Source: a virus. Taken from it: a stretch of DNA of 34,564 nt. Of this stretch, positions 10,985 through 34,046 are shown piece by piece (position 1 is the stretch's first letter; the number at the start of each line of letters is the position of its first letter). The stretch is from positions 1 through 34,564 of IMG/VR virus record IMGVR_UViG_3300024520_000271, one strand, 5' to 3'. A program made the position numbers and the translations under genes. The notes under the pieces were generated by a model. That model made no database searches, had not been told where the DNA came from, and saw only the letters and a list, made by a program, of their open reading frames with translations.

Positions 10985-11224
10985 TTAAATCATAAATACA
11001 TCATTGCATTCCTTACATCTAACCCATCCTGCTATTTCGGGTTCAGTGTTTTTACAGTCGCATAACTGTTCGCTTTGCCTTACAACATTATGTATAACAA
11101 ATAATTTTACTAAACTTTTTGCTAAATTGTTAAATTCGCTTTCTGCAATACACCCTTCCAAGCTTTCTGTAACTGTATCTGAGTGTTCGTAGCTTTTTAT
11201 TATTTTCAATATTTCCTTTTCCAT
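10985..11224 (-). CDS. 79-aa zinc-ribbon-like protein
   Basis: Last gene of the minus-strand cluster. It encodes a helical N-terminal part (EKEILKIIKSYEHSD) and a C-terminal CxC...CxxC arrangement (LCDCKNT ... VRCKECNDVF) suited to binding zinc. Overall design, size and position of the Cys pairs resemble the neighbour at 11588, suggesting paralogues or a common theme. No known function; short zinc-ribbon phage proteins are often nucleic-acid or host-protein binders, which is inference only. Confidence 0.65.
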   Translation of the reverse strand: MEKEILKIIKSYEHSDTVTESLEGCIAESEFNNLAKSLVKLFVIHNVVRQSEQLCDCKNTEPEIAGWVRCKECNDVFMI

Positions 11225-11284
11225 AATTATTGTAGTTTTAAATCCGTAAAATTAAATGCCATACATTAGCCGTTAGTAGCAATA
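11225..11284 (-). repeat. Inter-gene element E4
   Basis: Spacer of 60 bases between minus-strand genes. On the minus strand it opens with GCTACTAACGGCTAATGTATGG shortly after the stop codon; CTAACG close behind a stop also occurs in the spacers at 11504-11587, 12113-12395 and 24568-24614. Confidence 0.5.
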
Positions 11285-11503
11285 TTAATGGTTTTCACAG
11301 TTTCCTTTATGAGCCAATGACATTGCATCACTCCAAGGTCTACAGCTAATGTAAATATATTCACAACCATCTACCTCTATTACCTTGTATGTTTTTTCAG
11401 GGTTTACATCATTATCACTTCCTTCTAGGGTACAACCAACCATTAAAAAAGCAACTAACAATGTGTAAAATGCATAGCTTAATTTTGTTATTAAATTTTT
11501 CAT
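11285..11503 (-). CDS. Small lipoprotein
   Basis: The 72-aa product has a classical lipoprotein signal: a basic N-terminus (MKNLITK), a hydrophobic stretch (residues 9-23) and a cysteine in LMVGC (residue 24), followed by an acidic TLEGSDND, which favours surface export in Bacteroidota. The mature part is about 49 aa with three further Cys. A phage lipoprotein in an accessory cluster could act in superinfection exclusion or host-envelope modification, as some known phage lipoproteins do; nothing here proves that. Confidence 0.7.
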   Translation of the reverse strand: MKNLITKLSYAFYTLLVAFLMVGCTLEGSDNDVNPEKTYKVIEVDGCEYIYISCRPWSDAMSLAHKGNCENH

Positions 11504-11587
11504 CTGTTTTTATTTTTAAAGTTTATTAATTATTCAAAGTTCTGTGCTGTTTAGGTCGCCACGCATCTTATACAAATACGTTAGCAA
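11504..11587 (-). repeat. Inter-gene element E3
   Basis: Spacer of 84 bases. On the minus strand it begins GCTAACGTATTTG and contains CCTAAACAGCACAG (plus-strand positions 11542-11555), which is identical to 24289-24302 ahead of the second small-gene array. Confidence 0.6.
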
Positions 11588-11821
11588 TCATTCAACGGCT
11601 ATATTTCCGCAGTCTAAACATTTTAATGCTGTCGAGCTAATTTGTTCGTGTTCAGTTTCTTTATCACACATCCCACAAAGTAACAGATTGCTAACATTCT
11701 GTATATTTAATGCTTGCTTTAGTGCTATTAATTCATCTTCGCAATAAACAGTATTGTCAATATTTTTTAACTCTGTATTAACCATATTGGTTATCATCAA
11801 TCTTTGTACTTCTGTTATCAT
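11588..11821 (-). CDS. 77-aa zinc-ribbon-like protein
   Basis: The protein has an N-terminal helical half (MITEVQRLMITNMVNTEL) and a C-terminal CxxC (LLCGMCDKE) plus CxxC (KCLDCGN), a zinc-ribbon layout. It resembles the product at 10985-11224 in length and design. It is the third gene of the minus-strand cluster. No family assignment is possible by reading; a DNA- or protein-binding accessory role is a guess. Confidence 0.65.
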   Translation of the reverse strand: MITEVQRLMITNMVNTELKNIDNTVYCEDELIALKQALNIQNVSNLLLCGMCDKETEHEQISSTALKCLDCGNIAVE

Positions 11822-11878
11822 CTTTATCTATTTAATTTTTTCGTTAATAATTCGCACTAAACATACAGTAGTAATTAA
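11822..11878 (-). repeat. Inter-gene element E2
   Basis: A 57-base spacer. On the minus strand it reads TTAATTACTACTGTATG, similar to the TTAATTACTGCTAACG that starts the spacer at 24566 in the second array. Confidence 0.4.
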
Positions 11879-12112
11879 CTACAATAAGCTAAGTTCGTGC
11901 TTTACTTTTAGAAAATATTGATAAGCATTTACATAACCTTCATATTCTGTTGGTATCATTTGTGCGTGCTTAATTGCTTCGTTTACACATATTTCAGCGT
12001 GCTTAATTGCTATCATAGTGCATAGTATTTCATATCCGCAATCAGTATCTTCATTCATCAATATTATTCTAAAAGTATCCACTAAGTCGTTTGCTTTTTC
12101 TTTTGGTGTCAT
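11879..12112 (-). CDS. 77-aa helical protein
   Basis: Starts MTPKEKANDLVDTFR and is all-helical, with several Cys and His (CGYEILCTMIAIKHAEICVNE). Proteins beginning MTPKEKA..LV are common, uncharacterised small proteins in Bacteroidota phages and prophages, so this is very likely a true gene. Second gene of the minus-strand cluster, preceded by a 283-base spacer. Confidence 0.7.
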   Translation of the reverse strand: MTPKEKANDLVDTFRIILMNEDTDCGYEILCTMIAIKHAEICVNEAIKHAQMIPTEYEGYVNAYQYFLKVKHELSLL

Positions 12113-12572: not shown

Positions 12573-12604
12573 CAAATATAATAAACTTTTTTAATATAAA
12601 CAAA
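12573..12604 (-). promoter_or_regulatory. Minus-strand promoter of the accessory cluster
   Basis: On the minus strand TATATTTG (plus 12573-12580) lies 20 bases downstream of TTTG (plus 12601-12604), matching the TTG-N19/20-TAnnTTTG Bacteroidota promoter. It directs transcription leftwards into the five small genes 12551 to 10985. Confidence 0.75.
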
Positions 12605-12617
12605 GTAAAAAAAAAAA

Positions 12618-12632
12618 ACTTTTAAATATATG
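12618..12632 (+). promoter_or_regulatory. ACTTTTAAATATATG motif, copy 2
   Basis: Identical to 2624-2638; ends in the ATG of the 55-aa gene at 12630. It lies just beyond the divergent minus-strand promoter and marks the resumption of rightward structural genes. Confidence 0.55.
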
Positions 12633-16272: not shown

Positions 16273-16382
16273 TTGTTTGAAAACGGGAAAAAATGAAAAA
16301 TTTCCCACTTTGAAACAATCCTTTGCTATCTATACTTGAGCCATATCAAATGTACGCTAGTATATATATATATATAACAACA
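16273..16382 (+). repeat. Twin ~110-bp structured element, copy A
   Basis: This intergenic element matches 33939-34046. First half: arms GTTTGAAAACGGGAAA and TTTCCCACTTTGAAAC are identical in both copies and pair at 13 of 16 positions, while the loop between them differs. Second half: a conserved GCTATC, then a GCTAGTATATA run of (TA)8 here and (TA)7 in copy B, ending ACAACA. It lies just after the tape measure gene and 10 bases before the protease gene ATG. A regulatory RNA leader, promoter or replication/packaging site is possible. Confidence 0.75.
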
Positions 16383-16392
16383 AATAAAAATT

Positions 16393-17022
16393 ATGAAAGA
16401 ATTATTAGTTGAATTAACAGTTAACGAATTAGAAGAAACAGGCATAGATATTATATCTTTTGTAGAAGCTCCTGCTATAGAAACTAACTTCATGTATTTT
16501 AGTAAAAATAAGAAGCAAAACTTCTCTTCTATTGATGCTGAAAAACGAATAGTAGTAGGAGCAGCTATGTTAGCTAATGAAAAAATAGTTAGAGAAGATG
16601 CAGATGGTAATCCATATTTTGTGTATTTCTCAGAAGAAACAGTTAGAAAGTGCCAAGAATTATTTTTCAAAAAAGGTAATACCAAAGGAACTAATGTAGA
16701 TCATGAACAAACAAAAGTTAGTTCAGGAGTTACTGTGGTAGAATCATGGATAGTAGAAAACCCTGAAATGGATAAATCAAAGCATTTAGGCTATGATGAT
16801 ATACCAAAAGGTAGTTGGTTTGTTTCTTACAAAGTAGATGATGATGCATTATGGGAGAAAGTAAAATCAGGAGAGGTACAAGGGTTTAGTGTAGAGGGAG
16901 TATTTACGCAAACAGTTGTAGATGATAAAAACATAGAGCAGGAGATGCAATCTATTTTAAATGGTTGTGGTTCTCGTATTGATAAAATACTAGCATTAAA
17001 AGAAAAATTAAACATTTCATAA
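16393..17022 (+). CDS. XkdF-like prohead protease
   Basis: The 209-aa product matches the phage serine protease XkdF type: MKELLVELTVNELEETGIDI, ISFVEAPAIETNFMYFS, RIVVGAAMLANEKIVR (residues about 52-67), then NVDHEQTKVSSGVTVVESW (about 100-118), where His is the usual catalytic candidate, and VKSGEVQGFSVEGVF (about 157-171) with the catalytic Ser candidate in GFSVEG. The enzyme matures the prohead by cleaving the scaffold and capsid. It is followed directly by scaffold-like and capsid genes, as expected. Its ATG lies ten bases after the twin element copy A, which probably controls the head operon. Confidence 0.85.
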   Translation: MKELLVELTVNELEETGIDIISFVEAPAIETNFMYFSKNKKQNFSSIDAEKRIVVGAAMLANEKIVREDADGNPYFVYFSEETVRKCQELFFKKGNTKGTNVDHEQTKVSSGVTVVESWIVENPEMDKSKHLGYDDIPKGSWFVSYKVDDDALWEKVKSGEVQGFSVEGVFTQTVVDDKNIEQEMQSILNGCGSRIDKILALKEKLNIS

Positions 17023-17029
17023 TTAAATT

Positions 17030-17044
17030 ACTTTTAAATATATA
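17030..17044 (+). promoter_or_regulatory. ACTTTTAAATATAT motif, copy 3
   Basis: ACTTTTAAATATAT followed by ATAA instead of G. Unlike the other copies it is separated from the start codon (17065) by about 20 bases, which argues against a pure start-codon element. Confidence 0.5.
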
Positions 17045-19240: not shown

Positions 19241-19262
19241 ATAAACATTGCATAAATAATTA

Positions 19263-19277
19263 ACTTTTAAATATATG
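19263..19277 (+). promoter_or_regulatory. ACTTTTAAATATATG motif, copy 4
   Basis: Identical to the copies at 2624 and 12618, ending in the ATG of the 54-aa gene at 19275, and again placed just after a terminator. Confidence 0.55.
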
Positions 19278-23316: not shown

Positions 23317-24246
23317 ATGAAATTAGGACAAAAAAAGATTCAAAGAATTACAGATTTATATGCTTCTAGTATGAGTCGAAAAGAAGTTCAAGAGTTATTA
23401 GCTGAAGAGTGGTGCTGTTCTGTAAGGAATATTAGATACCATGCTAAAATTTTAGGACTAGGAACTGTAAAAGCTCATACTAAAGAAGATAGAGTTTTAG
23501 TATATGATATTGAAACTTCAAGAGTTACGGCTAAAATTTGGAGTAGTGGTAAACAATATGTTAATCATTCAGCTTTAAAAACTAGCACTTCTATTATTTC
23601 TATAGCTTGGAAGTGGATAGGTGAAGACAAAGTTCATTCTTTAACATGGGATAAAGACCAATGTGATAAAACTATGATGGAAAAGTTTTTAAAAGAATAT
23701 AATAAAGCTGCTATTGTAGTAGGTCAAAATAACAATTCTTTTGATAATAAATTAATAAATACAAGGGCTGCTTATCATAAATTGTTTGTTAATAGTTACA
23801 TAACATCATTTGATATTTATAGACACGCTAAATCTAAGTTTAGACTAGCGTCTTATTCTATGGCTTACATGGCTAAGTATTTCGGTTTAACATTAAAGCA
23901 ATCACATGAAGGTATTCATATGTGGGATATGATAGAAGACGGTACGAAAGCAGAACAAAAGGAATATCTTAAAAAAATGGTAGATTATAACGTAGGTGAT
24001 ATTGTAACTACTGAAGAGCTATATATGACTTTAAGACCTTACTTTAAACACGCAACTAATTTAGCTGTTAAAGATGGTTTACCTAAGTGGGCTTGTCCTA
24101 ATACGGGTTCTTTAAATGTAAGTTTACTAGATACTAAGTTTACAGCAGCAGGAACAGTACAAAGAATTTTATATTGCGAGGAAAGTAACACTCAATATAA
24201 AGTAAGTAATAAGACCTACATGGATTTTTTGCAAAGACAATTGTAA
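23317..24246 (+). CDS. DnaQ-like 3'-5' exonuclease with N-terminal HTH
   Basis: The 309-aa protein has an N-terminal helix-turn-helix-like part (residues 1-50, MSRKEVQELLAEEWCCSVRN) and an RNase H-fold exonuclease domain with the three DEDD motifs: YDIETS (Asp64, Glu66), GQNNNSFDNKLINTR (Asp143) and MVDYNVGDIVTTEELY (Asp228 with Tyr224, the DEDDy/DEDDh region). It removes 3' ends, acting in proofreading or recombination. A polymerase-palm-like protein (26807) is encoded 2.5 kb away without its own obvious exonuclease, so this could proofread in trans; that link is inferred. Confidence 0.82.
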   Translation: MKLGQKKIQRITDLYASSMSRKEVQELLAEEWCCSVRNIRYHAKILGLGTVKAHTKEDRVLVYDIETSRVTAKIWSSGKQYVNHSALKTSTSIISIAWKWIGEDKVHSLTWDKDQCDKTMMEKFLKEYNKAAIVVGQNNNSFDNKLINTRAAYHKLFVNSYITSFDIYRHAKSKFRLASYSMAYMAKYFGLTLKQSHEGIHMWDMIEDGTKAEQKEYLKKMVDYNVGDIVTTEELYMTLRPYFKHATNLAVKDGLPKWACPNTGSLNVSLLDTKFTAAGTVQRILYCEESNTQYKVSNKTYMDFLQRQL

Positions 24247-26078: not shown

Positions 26079-26810
26079 ATGACAAAGGAAGAGAAAAGAA
26101 GAGAGTATTCGAGGCAGTGGTATTTAAAAAACAAAGAAAAATCTGCTGCTAAAGCAAGAGCGTATTATATAGCAAATAAAGAGAGGATAAATGCTACTGT
26201 TAAAAAATACAGAAATGAAAACTCAGAAAAAGTTAAGGCTAGACTTAGAAAATATACAGAGAAAAACAAAAAGAAAATAGCAGCAAATGCTAAGATTTAT
26301 AGGGAGAAAAACGGAGAAAAAATAAGAGAAAAACAGAGACTTTACTACGCTGAAAATAGAAAAAAAGAAGCTATTAGGAAAAAAAAATACCACGCAGCAA
26401 CAAGGGAAAGGAGAAACAAAACAGAAAGAGACCGTTTAAATTCAGACCCTATTTACAAGTTGAAAAGAGGGGTGAGACATAATATATGCGGGTCTTTTAA
26501 GCGTCAAGGATTCACTAAAAAATCAAAGTCTTTTAAAATTCTATGCTGCGACTACAGTACTTTCCTAAAGCATATTGAATCTAAATTTACTGAAGGTATG
26601 ACATTAGAAAATTATGGCGAATGGCATTTAGACCATCAAATACCTTTAGCTTTAGCAGAAACAGAAGAAGAGGTTATAGAGCTATGCCATTACACAAATT
26701 ACCAACCGTTATGGAAAGAAGAAAATTTTTCAAAAGGAGATGCTATTTTTTTAGAAAATATTAGTTTTGCAAATCAAACTAGGTTTGCTAAGTTTTTAAG
26801 TAGAGTATGA
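26079..26810 (+). CDS. Free-standing HNH endonuclease
   Basis: The 243-aa protein has a very basic, repetitive N-terminal part (residues 1-125) built of copies of Y-[YR]-x-x-N-[KR]-E-[KR]-[IK], a DNA-binding coil found in phage homing endonucleases, then an HNH domain: CDYSTFLKHIESKF (about 154-167), EWHLDHQIPLALAE (about 181-194, with HLDH) and LCHYTNYQPLWKEENFSKGD (about 203-222, with N and K of the HNH). It probably cleaves DNA at a specific site in relatives lacking it. Its own promoter/terminator boundary and position before the replication protein are typical for a mobile homing gene. The last bases overlap the next start (ATGA). Confidence 0.87.
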   Translation: MTKEEKRREYSRQWYLKNKEKSAAKARAYYIANKERINATVKKYRNENSEKVKARLRKYTEKNKKKIAANAKIYREKNGEKIREKQRLYYAENRKKEAIRKKKYHAATRERRNKTERDRLNSDPIYKLKRGVRHNICGSFKRQGFTKKSKSFKILCCDYSTFLKHIESKFTEGMTLENYGEWHLDHQIPLALAETEEEVIELCHYTNYQPLWKEENFSKGDAIFLENISFANQTRFAKFLSRV

Positions 26811-29047
26811 AGTATTTATATAATGAAAACAAATATCTATCTAGCGATATTATTAGTGAATGTTTTGAGAATGGAAAGATTAATTATATTGATAAGGTTT
26901 TGACAGGTTCAGGTTTTACTACTGGCTTCTCATTTTTACAACCTGCTTTTAATAAAGTTAATGTTTTAATAGCTCCTAATCAATCAATAGTTAAAGACAA
27001 AGAAAAAGAATATAAAGTAGGTAAATTCGCCCCTAATAAAAGAGCTGCATTTGTTTACGAGGGCAGCCCGTTACGTGGTAAGCACTCCGATTACGATTTA
27101 GTAGTATTAGTTGCTGATTCATTTAATAACTTCAGTTATCTATTAAAAGGTAATATTGATAAATTAATGGTAGATGAATTCCATTCTGTTATTATTCAAA
27201 GCTCTTTTAGGCATCAGCTTAAAAAAATGATATACGCTTTAGAAAATGATCATAAAGAAGCAGCTATTAGTTTTGTTACTGCATCTCCTTTATTATATTC
27301 TAAGATAGATATACAAATAGAAAATAAATACATGGATGATAGAATATTATACACTTCATCTGATGTAAAAGAATCTATTAAAAGGTGTGTCGAATCCATT
27401 AAATCAGGGAAGAAAACTATTATTTTTATTCAAGATGCTACAATAGTTAAAAACATTTTAAGAGCTGCAGGTAGAAATAATTTTAGATTAATAAGTGGCA
27501 ATAATTTTCTAAGTACATTATTAACTAAGGGCATTTATAAACTAGATGAAAATTCTAATATAGTTATTTGTTCATCTGCAGCTTTTGAAGGGTGGAGTGA
27601 TTATAGTATAAACGGTCATTCTTATATTTATATGAATTTAGGTAATCAACATAATACTTTTTTAGGCTGTAATATCTACCAAGCATTAGGAAGGTTAAGA
27701 GAGGGTTACGAATATGCGGAGATTTGTTGCACTAGATTAGGTGGTGGTGGTTTTGCTAATAACATAGTAGAAAGTTTACAAGATAAATTAGATAAGTTCA
27801 TTCAAATAGATAAATTTTCTATTGAGCAAAAACAATCTAAAAGTTTTGAATTTAGTTTCAAAAGAGAAAGAGTTAAAGCATTAGATTTAAAACCGTATAT
27901 GTTTTTTAAAAGAGATAAAAACGTTTACACTATATTAAAATATTATCATGCTATAGATGTGCATAATGAAACAAAACAAATAGATACTCAATTAAAACTT
28001 TATACTAATTATTTAAGAGTAAGAAAAATAGAATTAAAAGATATAGATGTGGACATAACACAAAAAAGAATGATGAGTAGAGTTGGTAGAGAGCAAAGGA
28101 TAGAAAATATAGTTACTAATGTAAGAGATAATAATTTAGAAGATTCTTTTATGGATTTCTTTTTTAAGAATTTCAGACCTGAAGATAAAATTAAATACTA
28201 TGTAAATGAGATAGATATTTTACAAAGTTGTGCTTTTGAATTAGAAATTGAATTAGATATTAAATATGAAACATTAAAACAATATCTTTTAAATGATGGT
28301 TATTTTAAAGAATTAAAGAAAGTATTAAAAGAAGCATCTATTAAGTGGGGATCATCTAAAAGAGAGATAACAGAAAGTTTAAAGACTTTTGAAGAAACTA
28401 CTTTTCAATATACTTTAGATGTTGCAATAGGAATCACCACAGGCTACTTTGAAAGTAATATGGTAGGGCATAGAGATTATAATAAATTAACACAAGTAGG
28501 AATTGATTTAATAGAGTTTGTTGCATTAAAACTAAATAAAGAAGTAACAGAAGTAGATATTAGAAATTGTTTTCCTCGTATAATATACGCTTTAAATGGT
28601 TATTCGTTGCCCTCAGATTTTTATGGTATTGATAGACAAAAGAACAAAAAAAGGATTAATGTATTATTGAATTCATTTAGATACAATAAAGAGAATTTAA
28701 GACCGTATGAAACACAGAAAAAAGACAGTAGAAGAAAATTAATTGAAGTTGGCATTAAAGAAGAGGTTGTAGAATGGTTAATAAATAATTATTTTAATAC
28801 AGCATTTAAAGGGGATTTCTTTAACTTCTTAGCATATCATGAGAGAGTTATAATAGGAGCTGCTATGGAAAAAATAAAACAATCTAATGCAAATATAGAA
28901 TTATATAGAAGACACGATAGCTTTTTATGCTTTAACGAATTGAGTTATAAAGTTTTAAATAATTTTGAATACTTAGGATGCAAAGATTGGTTCGATTCTT
29001 TTAAACCAAATGACAATGATTTTATTTTAAAACCGTTGTTATTCTAA
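26807..29047 (+). CDS. SF2-helicase-like protein with putative polymerase-palm C-terminus
   Basis: The 746-aa protein has SF2 helicase/Herpes-origin-binding-like motifs: P-loop position LTGSGFTTGF (residues 32-41, Phe37 where Lys is expected), DEFH (123-126), SFVTASP (155-161) and YQALGRLREG (291-300). Residues about 580-710 show another series: VDIRNCFPRII (Asp584), KKRINVLLNSFRYN (614-627) and YRRHDSFLCF (700-709, Asp704). These resemble polymerase palm motifs A (DxxSLYPSI), B (KxxxNSxYG) and C (DTDS or HDE), though the spacing between A and B is short and motif C has one Asp. No other DNA polymerase or primase is recognised in the genome. A replication role is likely; polymerase activity is inference. 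Confidence 0.6.
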   Translation: MKYLYNENKYLSSDIISECFENGKINYIDKVLTGSGFTTGFSFLQPAFNKVNVLIAPNQSIVKDKEKEYKVGKFAPNKRAAFVYEGSPLRGKHSDYDLVVLVADSFNNFSYLLKGNIDKLMVDEFHSVIIQSSFRHQLKKMIYALENDHKEAAISFVTASPLLYSKIDIQIENKYMDDRILYTSSDVKESIKRCVESIKSGKKTIIFIQDATIVKNILRAAGRNNFRLISGNNFLSTLLTKGIYKLDENSNIVICSSAAFEGWSDYSINGHSYIYMNLGNQHNTFLGCNIYQALGRLREGYEYAEICCTRLGGGGFANNIVESLQDKLDKFIQIDKFSIEQKQSKSFEFSFKRERVKALDLKPYMFFKRDKNVYTILKYYHAIDVHNETKQIDTQLKLYTNYLRVRKIELKDIDVDITQKRMMSRVGREQRIENIVTNVRDNNLEDSFMDFFFKNFRPEDKIKYYVNEIDILQSCAFELEIELDIKYETLKQYLLNDGYFKELKKVLKEASIKWGSSKREITESLKTFEETTFQYTLDVAIGITTGYFESNMVGHRDYNKLTQVGIDLIEFVALKLNKEVTEVDIRNCFPRIIYALNGYSLPSDFYGIDRQKNKKRINVLLNSFRYNKENLRPYETQKKDSRRKLIEVGIKEEVVEWLINNYFNTAFKGDFFNFLAYHERVIIGAAMEKIKQSNANIELYRRHDSFLCFNELSYKVLNNFEYLGCKDWFDSFKPNDNDFILKPLLF

Positions 29048-29126: not shown

Positions 29127-29276
29127 ATGGAAACAAGAGCGAAACAAACGGAACATTTTAAAGGGCTTATGTATGATTTAGAAGATAAAAATGATAGAAT
29201 AGCTTTGTTATGGAGCTTAGTAAATGCTAATAAAATAAATAGAAGGCAGTTTAAGGAATTAATTAATTGTTTATAA
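29127..29276 (+). CDS. 49-aa helical protein
   Basis: The ORF gives a 49-residue charged helical protein (METRAKQTEHFKGLMYDLED at the start, NRRQFKELINCL at the end). It has a promoter 60 bases upstream. Its stop codon TAA lies in the left arm of an inverted repeat (29275-29324), an arrangement seen at cassette-type boundaries in this genome. No family known. Confidence 0.55.
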   Translation: METRAKQTEHFKGLMYDLEDKNDRIALLWSLVNANKINRRQFKELINCL

Positions 29277-29324
29277 CACCAAACTATGTAACGTAAGCGA
29301 AGCGGTGTTATATAGTTTGGTGTT
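29275..29324 (+). repeat. Inter-gene inverted repeat E10
   Basis: AACACCAAACTATGTAAC (29275-29292) pairs with GTTATATAGTTTGGTGTT (29307-29324) at 17 of 18 positions. It shares ACACCRARCTATGTAACG and CGGTGTTATAT with E9 at 25064-25100. No T-run follows, so it is not a simple terminator. Confidence 0.7.
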
Positions 29325-29340
29325 AGCAAAAAAAATAAAT

Positions 29341-30576
29341 ATGTTTAAGTTAAGAGATTACCAGCAGGATTTATCTAATAAGGTAGCTTCTGTTATTAAA
29401 GAAAATAAGATAGCTATTCTAAATGCTGAAGTTAGAACTGGGAAAACTCATGTAGCTTTAGATGTGGCATCTAGATATAAGAATGTTTTATTCATTACAA
29501 AGAAGAAAGCAATATCATCTATAGAAGATGATTATAAAACAGCAAACCACTCATTTAATATAACAATAATAAACTATGAAAGCTTACATAAAATTCAAGG
29601 CGTTTTTGATTTGGTTATATGTGACGAATCGCATAATCTGGCAACCTATCCAAAACCTAGTAAAAGAATTAAAGCAGTTAAGCAGTTCGTTACTAATGAC
29701 TTACTACTCTTAACAGGAACTTTGTTACCTGAATCAAACAGTCAAATTTTTCATCAGCTTTGGGTAAGTCCTCACAGTCCTTATAAGAATTGTGGTAATT
29801 TCTATAAATGGCATAAGATTTATGGCACGCCTGCAATAGTTTATACTTCTTACGGAGAGGCTAAAGACTATAGCGTAGTTGATTATGATAAAATTAAAGG
29901 AGTTGTAGAACGTCTTAAAGTATCATTCACTCAAAAGGAAGCAGGATTTACTACTAAAGTTAATGAGCATATTGTTAAAGTAGATATGAAACAATCTACT
30001 GTTAACTTAATGAATAAGCTTAGAAAGGATTTAGTAATTGAAGGAAAAGAAGAAACTATCTTAGCAGATACGGGTGTAAAGCTTATGAGTAAGCTGCAGC
30101 AAATGAGCAGCGGCACTGTTAAATTTGAGAGTGGTAATGCTAAAACATTAGACACTACTAAAGTAGATTACATTGCAGAACGTTTTAAAGGTAAGAAGTT
30201 AGCTATCTTTTATTATTATAAGCAGGAGTTAGAAATGATTAAAGATAAGTTCAAAGATACTTTAACGACTGATTTAGAAGAGTTTAACACTACGGATAAA
30301 CATATAGCTTTGCAGCAAATATCGGGTGCTGAAGGGATTAACTTATCTAAAGCTGATGTATTAATCTTTATTAACTTTGGTTTTAGCAATACTAAATACA
30401 TTCAGGCAAAAGATAGATTAACTACAATGGATAGGAAAGTTAATGATGTATATTTTATCATATCTAATAATGGTATTGATATGAATGTTTACAATGCATT
30501 ACAAAATAAAAGAGATTACGTACTACAAACATTTAAAAGAGATGAAAGAGCAACAATATCAAAAGAAAATCAGTGA
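29341..30576 (+). CDS. SNF2/DEAD-like DNA helicase
   Basis: The 411-aa protein (MFKLRDYQQDLSNKVASVIK) is a SNF2-type SF2 helicase: Q-motif-like N-terminus, Walker A AEVRTGKTHVAL (residues 29-40), DESH (95-98), LLLTGTLLPES (about 124-134), and C-terminal LAIFYYYKQE, QQISGAEGINLSKADVLIFI and motif VI QAKDRLTTMDR. It likely unwinds or remodels DNA in phage replication. The start at 29341 is chosen over an upstream in-frame codon at 29305, because the latter would begin inside inverted repeat E10. The 3' end overlaps the nuclease gene by 35 bases. Confidence 0.87.
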   Translation: MFKLRDYQQDLSNKVASVIKENKIAILNAEVRTGKTHVALDVASRYKNVLFITKKKAISSIEDDYKTANHSFNITIINYESLHKIQGVFDLVICDESHNLATYPKPSKRIKAVKQFVTNDLLLLTGTLLPESNSQIFHQLWVSPHSPYKNCGNFYKWHKIYGTPAIVYTSYGEAKDYSVVDYDKIKGVVERLKVSFTQKEAGFTTKVNEHIVKVDMKQSTVNLMNKLRKDLVIEGKEETILADTGVKLMSKLQQMSSGTVKFESGNAKTLDTTKVDYIAERFKGKKLAIFYYYKQELEMIKDKFKDTLTTDLEEFNTTDKHIALQQISGAEGINLSKADVLIFINFGFSNTKYIQAKDRLTTMDRKVNDVYFIISNNGIDMNVYNALQNKRDYVLQTFKRDERATISKENQ

Positions 30577-31125: not shown

Positions 31126-31292
31126 GCGAGTATATTAGAATAAGTCATTCGATTGATTCAATCAATAACTTTGAACAAGTTAAGCCAACTTTTAAATGGA
31201 TTAGGCATTTTGGTAATGCTTTTAAAGATGTACAAGGAATACAGGAGAAGAAACAATTATTATTAACACAACTAAACAATATAGAATTATGA
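31119..31292 (+). CDS. 57-aa protein coupled to the annealing protein
   Basis: A 57-residue helical protein (MLSEYIRISHSIDSINNFEQ, ending EKKQLLLTQLNNIEL) fills the gap between the 84-aa gene and the annealing protein, with start and stop both in short overlaps (ATGTTAA before, ATGA after). The double coupling makes it a real gene. The layout suggests a partner of the recombination proteins; no family recognised. Confidence 0.65.
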   Translation: MLSEYIRISHSIDSINNFEQVKPTFKWIRHFGNAFKDVQGIQEKKQLLLTQLNNIEL

Positions 31293-31873: not shown

Positions 31874-32227
31874 ATGAAAATAACAGGAAAAATAACAGTA
31901 ATTAAAGAAGTAGAAAAAGGAACTACTAAAGCCGATAAGAACTGGTCTAAAGTATCATTCTTATTAGAAACAGATGAAACGTATAATAATTTATATTGTC
32001 TTAATATCTTCTCTATGGATGATGCAGAAAAAAACAATGTAGAAAACTTTACTAAGTTTAATAAGGTTGGTCAAATGGTAGACGTTGAATTTAACGTCAA
32101 AACTACTGAGTGGAATGGTAAACACTTTACAGAATTAGCAGCATGGAAAGTATTTAAAGCTGAAGCTGTAGAGATTCCGCAAATGGAAGGAACTACTGAA
32201 GCGTTAAATGATGCGTTACCGTTTTAA
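31874..32227 (+). CDS. DUF3127 OB-fold ssDNA-binding protein
   Basis: The 117-aa product MKITGKITVIKEVEKGTTKA, with NWSKVSFLLETDETYNNLYC, a VGQMVDVEFNVKTTEWNGKH core and the terminal DALPF, matches the DUF3127 OB-fold family that acts as the phage SSB. The acidic, hydrophobic end (ALNDALPF) imitates the partner-binding tip of bacterial SSB. It follows the annealing protein and is closed by a hairpin at 32241. Confidence 0.8.
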   Translation: MKITGKITVIKEVEKGTTKADKNWSKVSFLLETDETYNNLYCLNIFSMDDAEKNNVENFTKFNKVGQMVDVEFNVKTTEWNGKHFTELAAWKVFKAEAVEIPQMEGTTEALNDALPF

Positions 32228-33938: not shown

Positions 33939-34046
33939 TTGTTTGAAAACGGGAAATTTTCTTTTTTTTCCCACTTTGAAACAAATTTGCCCTTGCTATC
34001 ATTGGCTCATATTAAATGTGCGCTAGTATATATATATATAACAACA
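33939..34046 (+). repeat. Twin ~110-bp structured element, copy B
   Basis: Same arms as copy A (GTTTGAAAACGGGAAA 33941-33956 and TTTCCCACTTTGAAAC), a different T-rich loop, then GCTATC, GCGCTAG and (TA)7 with ACAACA. It follows terS directly and precedes a promoter box and the next gene. Copy A and copy B are 17,666 bp apart on a 34,395-bp circle, nearly opposite each other. Confidence 0.75.

Follow-up and report, generated by a model that had tools for sequence, protein, structure and literature searches.

A lysine-less SF2 helicase joined to a palm-like polymerase domain in a small phage: a probable new type of starter for viral DNA copying

The DNA analyzed here (the window, an entire virus record of 34,564 bases) carries direct repeats of 169 bases at its ends, which are 96% identical, and the genome is therefore probably near complete. 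The host of this small phage is probably a member of the Bacteroidota. One uninterrupted ORF encodes P0001, a protein of 746 amino acids in which a helicase-like half is followed by a half resembling a polymerase palm (Table 1). The start of this ORF overlaps the upstream HNH ORF by the sequence ATGA, and recombination genes follow 1-4 kb downstream: VRR-NUC at 30485, a recombination-type protein (phrog_7838) at 31289, and SSB at 31874. The hairpin that lies beyond the fusion gene has a DNA folding energy of -16.7 kcal/mol (z -5.4), and none of 200 shuffled sequences was equally stable; it could be an origin or a regulatory element. A preliminary description of the window had reported this ORF, together with a set of helicase and polymerase motifs, and all of them are present where they had been placed.

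Outside this locus, the genome is plus-strand except for a block of small minus-strand ORFs at 10985-12112, in which the GC skew is locally reversed. Four copies of a leader, TAAACA...ACTTTTAAATATAT (2603-2637, 12597-12631, 17009-17043, and 19242-19276), are 74-89% alike and lie mostly just 5' of gene starts; they are perhaps a common promoter or ribosome-binding region. In addition, a 74-nt repeat, 80% identical between its two copies (16301-16374 and 33967-34040), ends in TATATATATATA.

Table 1. Features of the fusion gene and its immediate neighborhood (residue numbers are those of P0001)
Feature	Position	Strand	Basis
HNH-type endonuclease gene	26079..26810	+	phrog_1035 endonuclease VII, 2.5e-7; same order in sister phage
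Fusion gene (P0001)	26807..29047	+	one uninterrupted 746-aa ORF and its translation
SF2 helicase core, residues ~20-310	26864..27736	+	family profile, 43.8 bits
Motif I, K30-VLT-G34-S-G36-F37-T38-T39	26894..26923	+	Phe37 in place of the Walker Lys; K30 invariant
Motif II, DEFH, residues 123-126	27173..27184	+	D123 and E124 invariant in 26/26; H126 invariant in alignment A4
Motif III, TASP, residues 158-161	27278..27289	+	A159 invariant in 26/26; aligns with SATP of relatives
Motif V region, SSAAFEGW, residues 256-263	27572..27595	+	S257, F260, E261, and G262 invariant in alignment A4
Motif VI, QALGRLR, residues 292-298	27680..27700	+	Q292, G295, R296, and R298 invariant in 26/26
Connecting region, residues 311-535	27737..28411	+	no family match in databases; only the sister copy reaches in, to residue 388
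Probable palm-like polymerase domain, residues ~536-746	28412..29044	+	profile match to stand-alone family; hhalign
Motif A, D584-IRNCF-P590	28556..28576	+	D, N, and P invariant with ten stand-alone relatives (family DIxNSQP)
Candidate motif B, R610-x3-K614-x3-N618-x3-N622-S623	28634..28675	+	read by eye (family RxxxKxxx[YF])
Helix before motif C, LAYHERVIIGAAMEKIK, residues 675-691	28829..28879	+	aligned by hhalign with family LAxxLQxxESxLI
Motif C, H703-D704-S705-F706, within RRHDS	28913..28924	+	HDS invariant with 10/10 stand-alone relatives
Hairpin, 19-bp stem	29274..29325		between the fusion gene and the SNF2-like (SF2) helicase gene
SNF2-like helicase gene	29341..30576	+	phrog_62, 3e-61; start 29341 probable, as in L004; marks replicator slot

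Direct searches with P0001 of Pfam, PHROGs, NCBIfam, PADLOC, the PDB, and the INPHARED phages, and likewise of the PLSDB plasmids, IMG/VR, the GTDB contigs, and 396 Bacteroidota genomes, yielded no credible relative, and for residues ~400-746 no closely related sequence turned up. Weak matches such as L107, L111, and L118 were dropped as unrelated on inspection, and a match in Pseudomonas phage Medea1 was rejected because it sits opposite an annotated gene. Pattern scans of IMG/VR did retrieve one orthologue, in a sister phage (IMGVR_UViG_3300028416_000127; L249/L301). This copy is 61% identical to P0001 over residues 1-388, the contig breaking off there and not reaching the palm, and it retains Phe37. 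As in the window, the gene follows an HNH gene, and the portal and capsid proteins of the two phages are 60% and 56% identical, respectively. A gene for a DnaQ-like exonuclease (23317-24246) is without a counterpart in the sister contig, where the corresponding region contains a metallophosphatase-like ORF; consequently, the fusion protein may not strictly require the exonuclease as a partner. With AlphaFold, neither the run on a 6-sequence alignment (mean pLDDT 38.7) nor that on the C-terminus alone (36.8) yielded a usable fold of P0001.

The relationships of the two halves emerged instead from family profiles. Relatives of the N-terminal half were found in Bacteroidota genomes with a DNA pattern for K-x-x-[TP]-G-x-G-x-T-T, whose first catch was a 622-amino-acid protein encoded beside a tyrosine recombinase, and the family was extended from there. 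Its carriers are Bacteroidota (Bacteroides) and Acinetobacter plasmids, integrative elements, and phages, and the relatives (L131, L148-L152, L143, and L250) are annotated "DEAD/DEAH box helicase family protein" or hypothetical. Residues 1-400 of P0001 score 43.8 bits against a profile of 20 relatives, compared with 11.4 bits for the best of 2,000 shuffles and -4.5 bits for the whole sequence reversed. The match stops near residue 400, and residues 401-746 alone score -2.4 bits. Judged by these scores, the N-terminal half of P0001 is homologous to the lysine-less helicase family. P0001 itself matches no Pfam helicase model, and PF02399 (the herpes origin-binding helicase) gave no match in a search in which the control likewise found nothing; other members of the family (A4) match the Pfam models DEAD (5.3e-6), SNF2, and ResIII. 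On three Acinetobacter plasmids (L149, L151, and L152; one is named pTB2-2B-tetX) the lysine-less helicase gene lies near a gene for an AAA ATPase, and there it may be an unrecognized replication gene.

The motifs of P0001 stand in SF2 order, with a DExH/D box (DEFH), a SAT/TAS motif (TASP), and a motif VI of the QxxGRxxR type (QALGRLR). In motif I, however, GSGFTT is present where Walker A calls for GxGK[ST], which confirms the P-loop without Lys of the preliminary description. Position 37 is A, G, F, or L in the family, but Lys in none of the 26 sequences aligned; thus, the missing Walker Lys is a family trait. Invariant in the same 26 sequences are K30, G36, T38, K65, D123, E124, A159, Q292, G295, R296, and R298. 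It had been proposed that P0001 makes unusual use of ATP. This holds insofar as the Lys is absent, and because of that absence the ATPase activity of P0001 is not assured, but the peculiarity belongs to the whole family. Furthermore, since an invariant Lys, K30, lies seven residues upstream of the missing one, ATP may still be used, in a re-wired way. The match of relatives to the DEAD, SNF2, and ResIII models points to an SF2 motor whose Lys has been relocated or is dispensable, and we infer from the alignment that K30 stands in for the Walker Lys. Among phage proteins, large terminases have been recorded with deviant Walker A motifs (Mitchell and Rao 2004, as cited in PMC5727402). Because the lysine-less P-loop is constant across plasmids, integrative elements, and phages, the drive of an SF2 motor by a relocated lysine becomes a testable question.

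The C-terminal half is related to a different family, whose members are stand-alone proteins of 390-550 amino acids. The family was found in Bacteroidota genomes with a DNA pattern for D[ILVF]xN[ST]QPF and was then extended by tblastn to six records from huge uncultured phages and a Hymenobacter plasmid. Its ten members (alignments A6/A7) are L302, L303, L304, and L308, five proteins of huge phages (L309-L313), and that of the Hymenobacter plasmid (L314). All ten have in common stretches resembling GRxHT, DIxNSQP, RxxxKxxx[YF], FP, LAxxLQxxE, and HDS, and their invariant residues, in the numbering of L311, are R243, R256, D271, N274-P277, G307, Y310, K326, F347, P352, Q376, E379, and H404-S406. 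Even in this distant family, the Asp residues equivalent to Asp584 and Asp704 of P0001 are invariant (10/10). The only PDB sequence matched by the full-length family profile is that of DNA polymerase I (7r0k, E 0.5, at GRLHTN and HD); with the palm-only profile, 7r0k (E 2.6) comes second to a Bcl-2-like protein, which was treated as a chance match to an unrelated protein. In addition, one member weakly matches phrog_15971, "DNA polymerase I" (0.002). These similarities suggest that the stand-alone family is related to family A. The family is undescribed, with no Pfam model and no known function.

Against the profile of this family, residues 470-746 of P0001 score 24.3 bits (E 9e-6 over 12,000 ORFs), whereas the best unrelated natural ORF scores 9.9 and the best of 5,000 shuffles 13.3. 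In an hhalign comparison (E 3e-4, probability 39%), P0001 and the family are colinear over motif A and the stretch preceding it, and over motif C and the helix preceding that; pairwise comparisons of P0001 with single members are weak (z -1.4 to 3.2). P0001 has the DIRN and the P of the family motif A, with NCFP where the family has NSQP, and lacks the invariant Gln before the HDS helix. The order of the motifs matches, and the two Asp residues are 120 residues apart, compared with 131-143 in most of the family. R610 and K614 were not placed together with the RxxxK of the family by automatic alignments, the fit being one seen by eye. It should be noted that the agreement in motif A is partly selected, because four of the ten relatives were found by a motif-A-like DNA pattern; HDS and the other agreements were not part of that pattern. 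A search of IMG/VR with a motif A pattern found nothing. Taken together, these comparisons make it probable that the C-terminal half of P0001 contains a palm. The earlier claim that a helicase and a polymerase-like domain are joined in one polypeptide has thus held up, firmly for the SF2 half and as a probable assignment for the other.

As to the type of polymerase, no Pfam, NCBIfam, or PHROG polymerase model matched P0001, family-A profiles included. The residues of family A do occur in order in P0001 (the motif A Asp, the R/K of motif B, and HD[ES] in motif C), with a homology that is indirect, via the stand-alone family. DIRNCFP resembles the DxxSLYP of family B, but NVLLNSFRYN (618-627) has neither the Lys nor the spacing of KxxxNSxYG, and motif C is HDS rather than DTDS; consequently, the family B reading was set aside. 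From its motifs, the palm looks nearer to the family A/T7 RNA polymerase (single-subunit) type than to family B. The preliminary description had set the motifs beside those of both families. Its palm-like reading survives, in that the motifs exceed chance, albeit weakly, while the resemblance that remains is to family A (RxxxK, HDS) and not to family B.

It is unlikely, in our estimation, that the palm-like residues are a coincidence. If they were, the helicase half would be the initiator, host DnaG would prime, and the C-terminus would be a lineage-specific domain for DNA binding, loading, or oligomerization in which a D, a K, and HDS happen to recall a palm. Helicase relatives of ~600 amino acids appear to work without a palm, which would suit such an arrangement, as would a similarity that is weak and confined to one sequence and the lack of a usable AlphaFold model. 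However, 24 bits over the right region, compared with the values for shuffles and unrelated ORFs given above, together with the expected succession of motifs and an Asp-Asp spacing not far from that of most of the family, argue for a genuine palm.

Comparison with related phages shows that P0001 occupies the slot of a replicator. Among 65 related loci having upstream sequence, 59 have a large replicator-type ORF (one of four types, of the primase/helicase kind) within 3 kb upstream of the neighboring helicase, and in 52 of these 59 the occupant is the VirE-annotated type. Homologues of the slot replicators are annotated DNA primase/helicase or DNA primase/TOPRIM, with the VirE type annotated primase/helicase in Flavobacterium phages. 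The swapping of DNA polymerases has been documented among related phages (PMC11348598), and this fits P0001 being a replaced replicator. Furthermore, the preliminary description is right that the genome shows no additional DNA polymerase or primase as far as the scanned ORFs of the replication and packaging regions are concerned, among which an exonuclease subunit, the SNF2-like helicase, VRR-NUC, the recombination-type protein, and SSB were recognized.

On balance, we lean toward a model in which P0001 is a replication initiator, a lysine-less helicase joined to a minimal family-A-like polymerase whose priming or extension of DNA serves the host polymerase. In this model, the N-terminal lysine-less SF2 motor would bind the origin of the phage, for which the hairpin that follows the fusion gene is a possible site, and would open or remodel the duplex there. 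The C-terminal ~210 residues would be a minimal palm polymerase of the family-A/T7 RNA polymerase type, in which D584 and D704 may bind the catalytic metals and R610/K614 are candidate contacts to the incoming nucleotide. The palm would lay down or extend a short primer on the exposed strand, and host DNA polymerase III would elongate it. P0001 would in this way replace, in one polypeptide, the primase-helicase held at the same place by related phages. Origin binding, priming, and the hand-over to the host polymerase are steps that we infer. The presence of helicase relatives on plasmids, integrative elements, and phages is as expected of an element-borne replication protein. On the other hand, many phages of such a size rely on host polymerases alone and have no polymerase of their own, which counts against an initiator-polymerase. 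Such a protein would probably be a starter of viral DNA copying of a new type. A more specific proposal, which is made tentatively and is possible rather than probable, is that P0001 is a single-polypeptide initiator-primase, in which a relocated-lysine SF2 motor is combined with a family-A-like palm that primes de novo; this palm, of an undescribed family, would be unrelated to the DnaG and archaeo-eukaryotic primases. To our knowledge, the known primases fall into two families. If the proposal is true, the phage protein would be a compact priming tool and a second, independent instance of a family-A primase.

A polymerase in P0001 could also serve recombination or repair synthesis, filling gaps or extending ends together with the recombination protein, SSB, and nucleases, while host proteins start replication; in that case, the phage protein would be analogous to DNA polymerase theta. 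The recombination genes downstream (VRR-NUC, phrog_7838, and SSB) and the HNH nuclease gene that overlaps the fusion gene are compatible with this role. We regard it as improbable, given that an annotated primase/helicase fills the same slot in related phages and that no alternative initiator was recognized in this one. Finally, that the core might hydrolyze no ATP and be only a DNA-binding scaffold for the palm domain would account for the loss of the Walker Lys throughout the family, but this is quite doubtful, since the Mg- and ATP-contacting residues T38, D123, E124, R296, and R298 are invariant, as is K30, which fits a working ATPase with a relocated Lys, and since large terminases, too, have been recorded with deviant Walker A motifs (Mitchell and Rao 2004, as cited in PMC5727402).

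Several systems can be compared with the proposed initiator. Like P0001, the lysine-less helicases have colinear motifs I-VI, an invariant upstream Lys, Thr after the missing Lys, and Gln-x2-Gly-Arg-x-Arg. However, they are proteins of ~585-694 amino acids in which no palm-like C-terminus was seen, and P0001, with Phe at the Lys position, is only 17-22% identical to those aligned. The stand-alone palm-like proteins share with P0001 the motif A Asp, Asn, and Pro, the HDS, a Glu in the helix ahead of it, and roughly the same spacing between the two Asp residues; they differ in being separate proteins with no helicase fusion, with NSQP rather than NCFP, and with another N-terminal region. The flavophage primase-helicases (the VirE-annotated protein of MW202828 and those of the Flavobacterium elemo phages) hold the slot of P0001 and presumably do the same job, but no sequence similarity to P0001 was found; their helicase domain is of the GxGK type, and their primase region is different.

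DNA polymerase theta combines an SF2 helicase and a family-A polymerase in one polypeptide and is used in end joining. Its helicase-then-polymerase order is that proposed for P0001, but it has more than 2,000 residues, a helicase of the Hel308/Ski2 type with the Walker Lys, and a full-size family-A polymerase. A family-A polymerase acting as a primase is known from one recent case, CCPol-MP of SCCmec, which works alongside the initiator helicase Cch2 (PMC7581432). As described there, this pairing of a family-A polymerase as primase with the initiator helicase of a mobile element resembles what is proposed for P0001; however, three separate proteins are involved, and Cch2 is a helicase of the Primase_Cterm/D5_N type with a Walker Lys (K252) and not an SF2 enzyme. 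By analogy, then, CCPol-MP/Cch2 is the nearest functional precedent for P0001, and DNA polymerase theta is the nearest architectural one.
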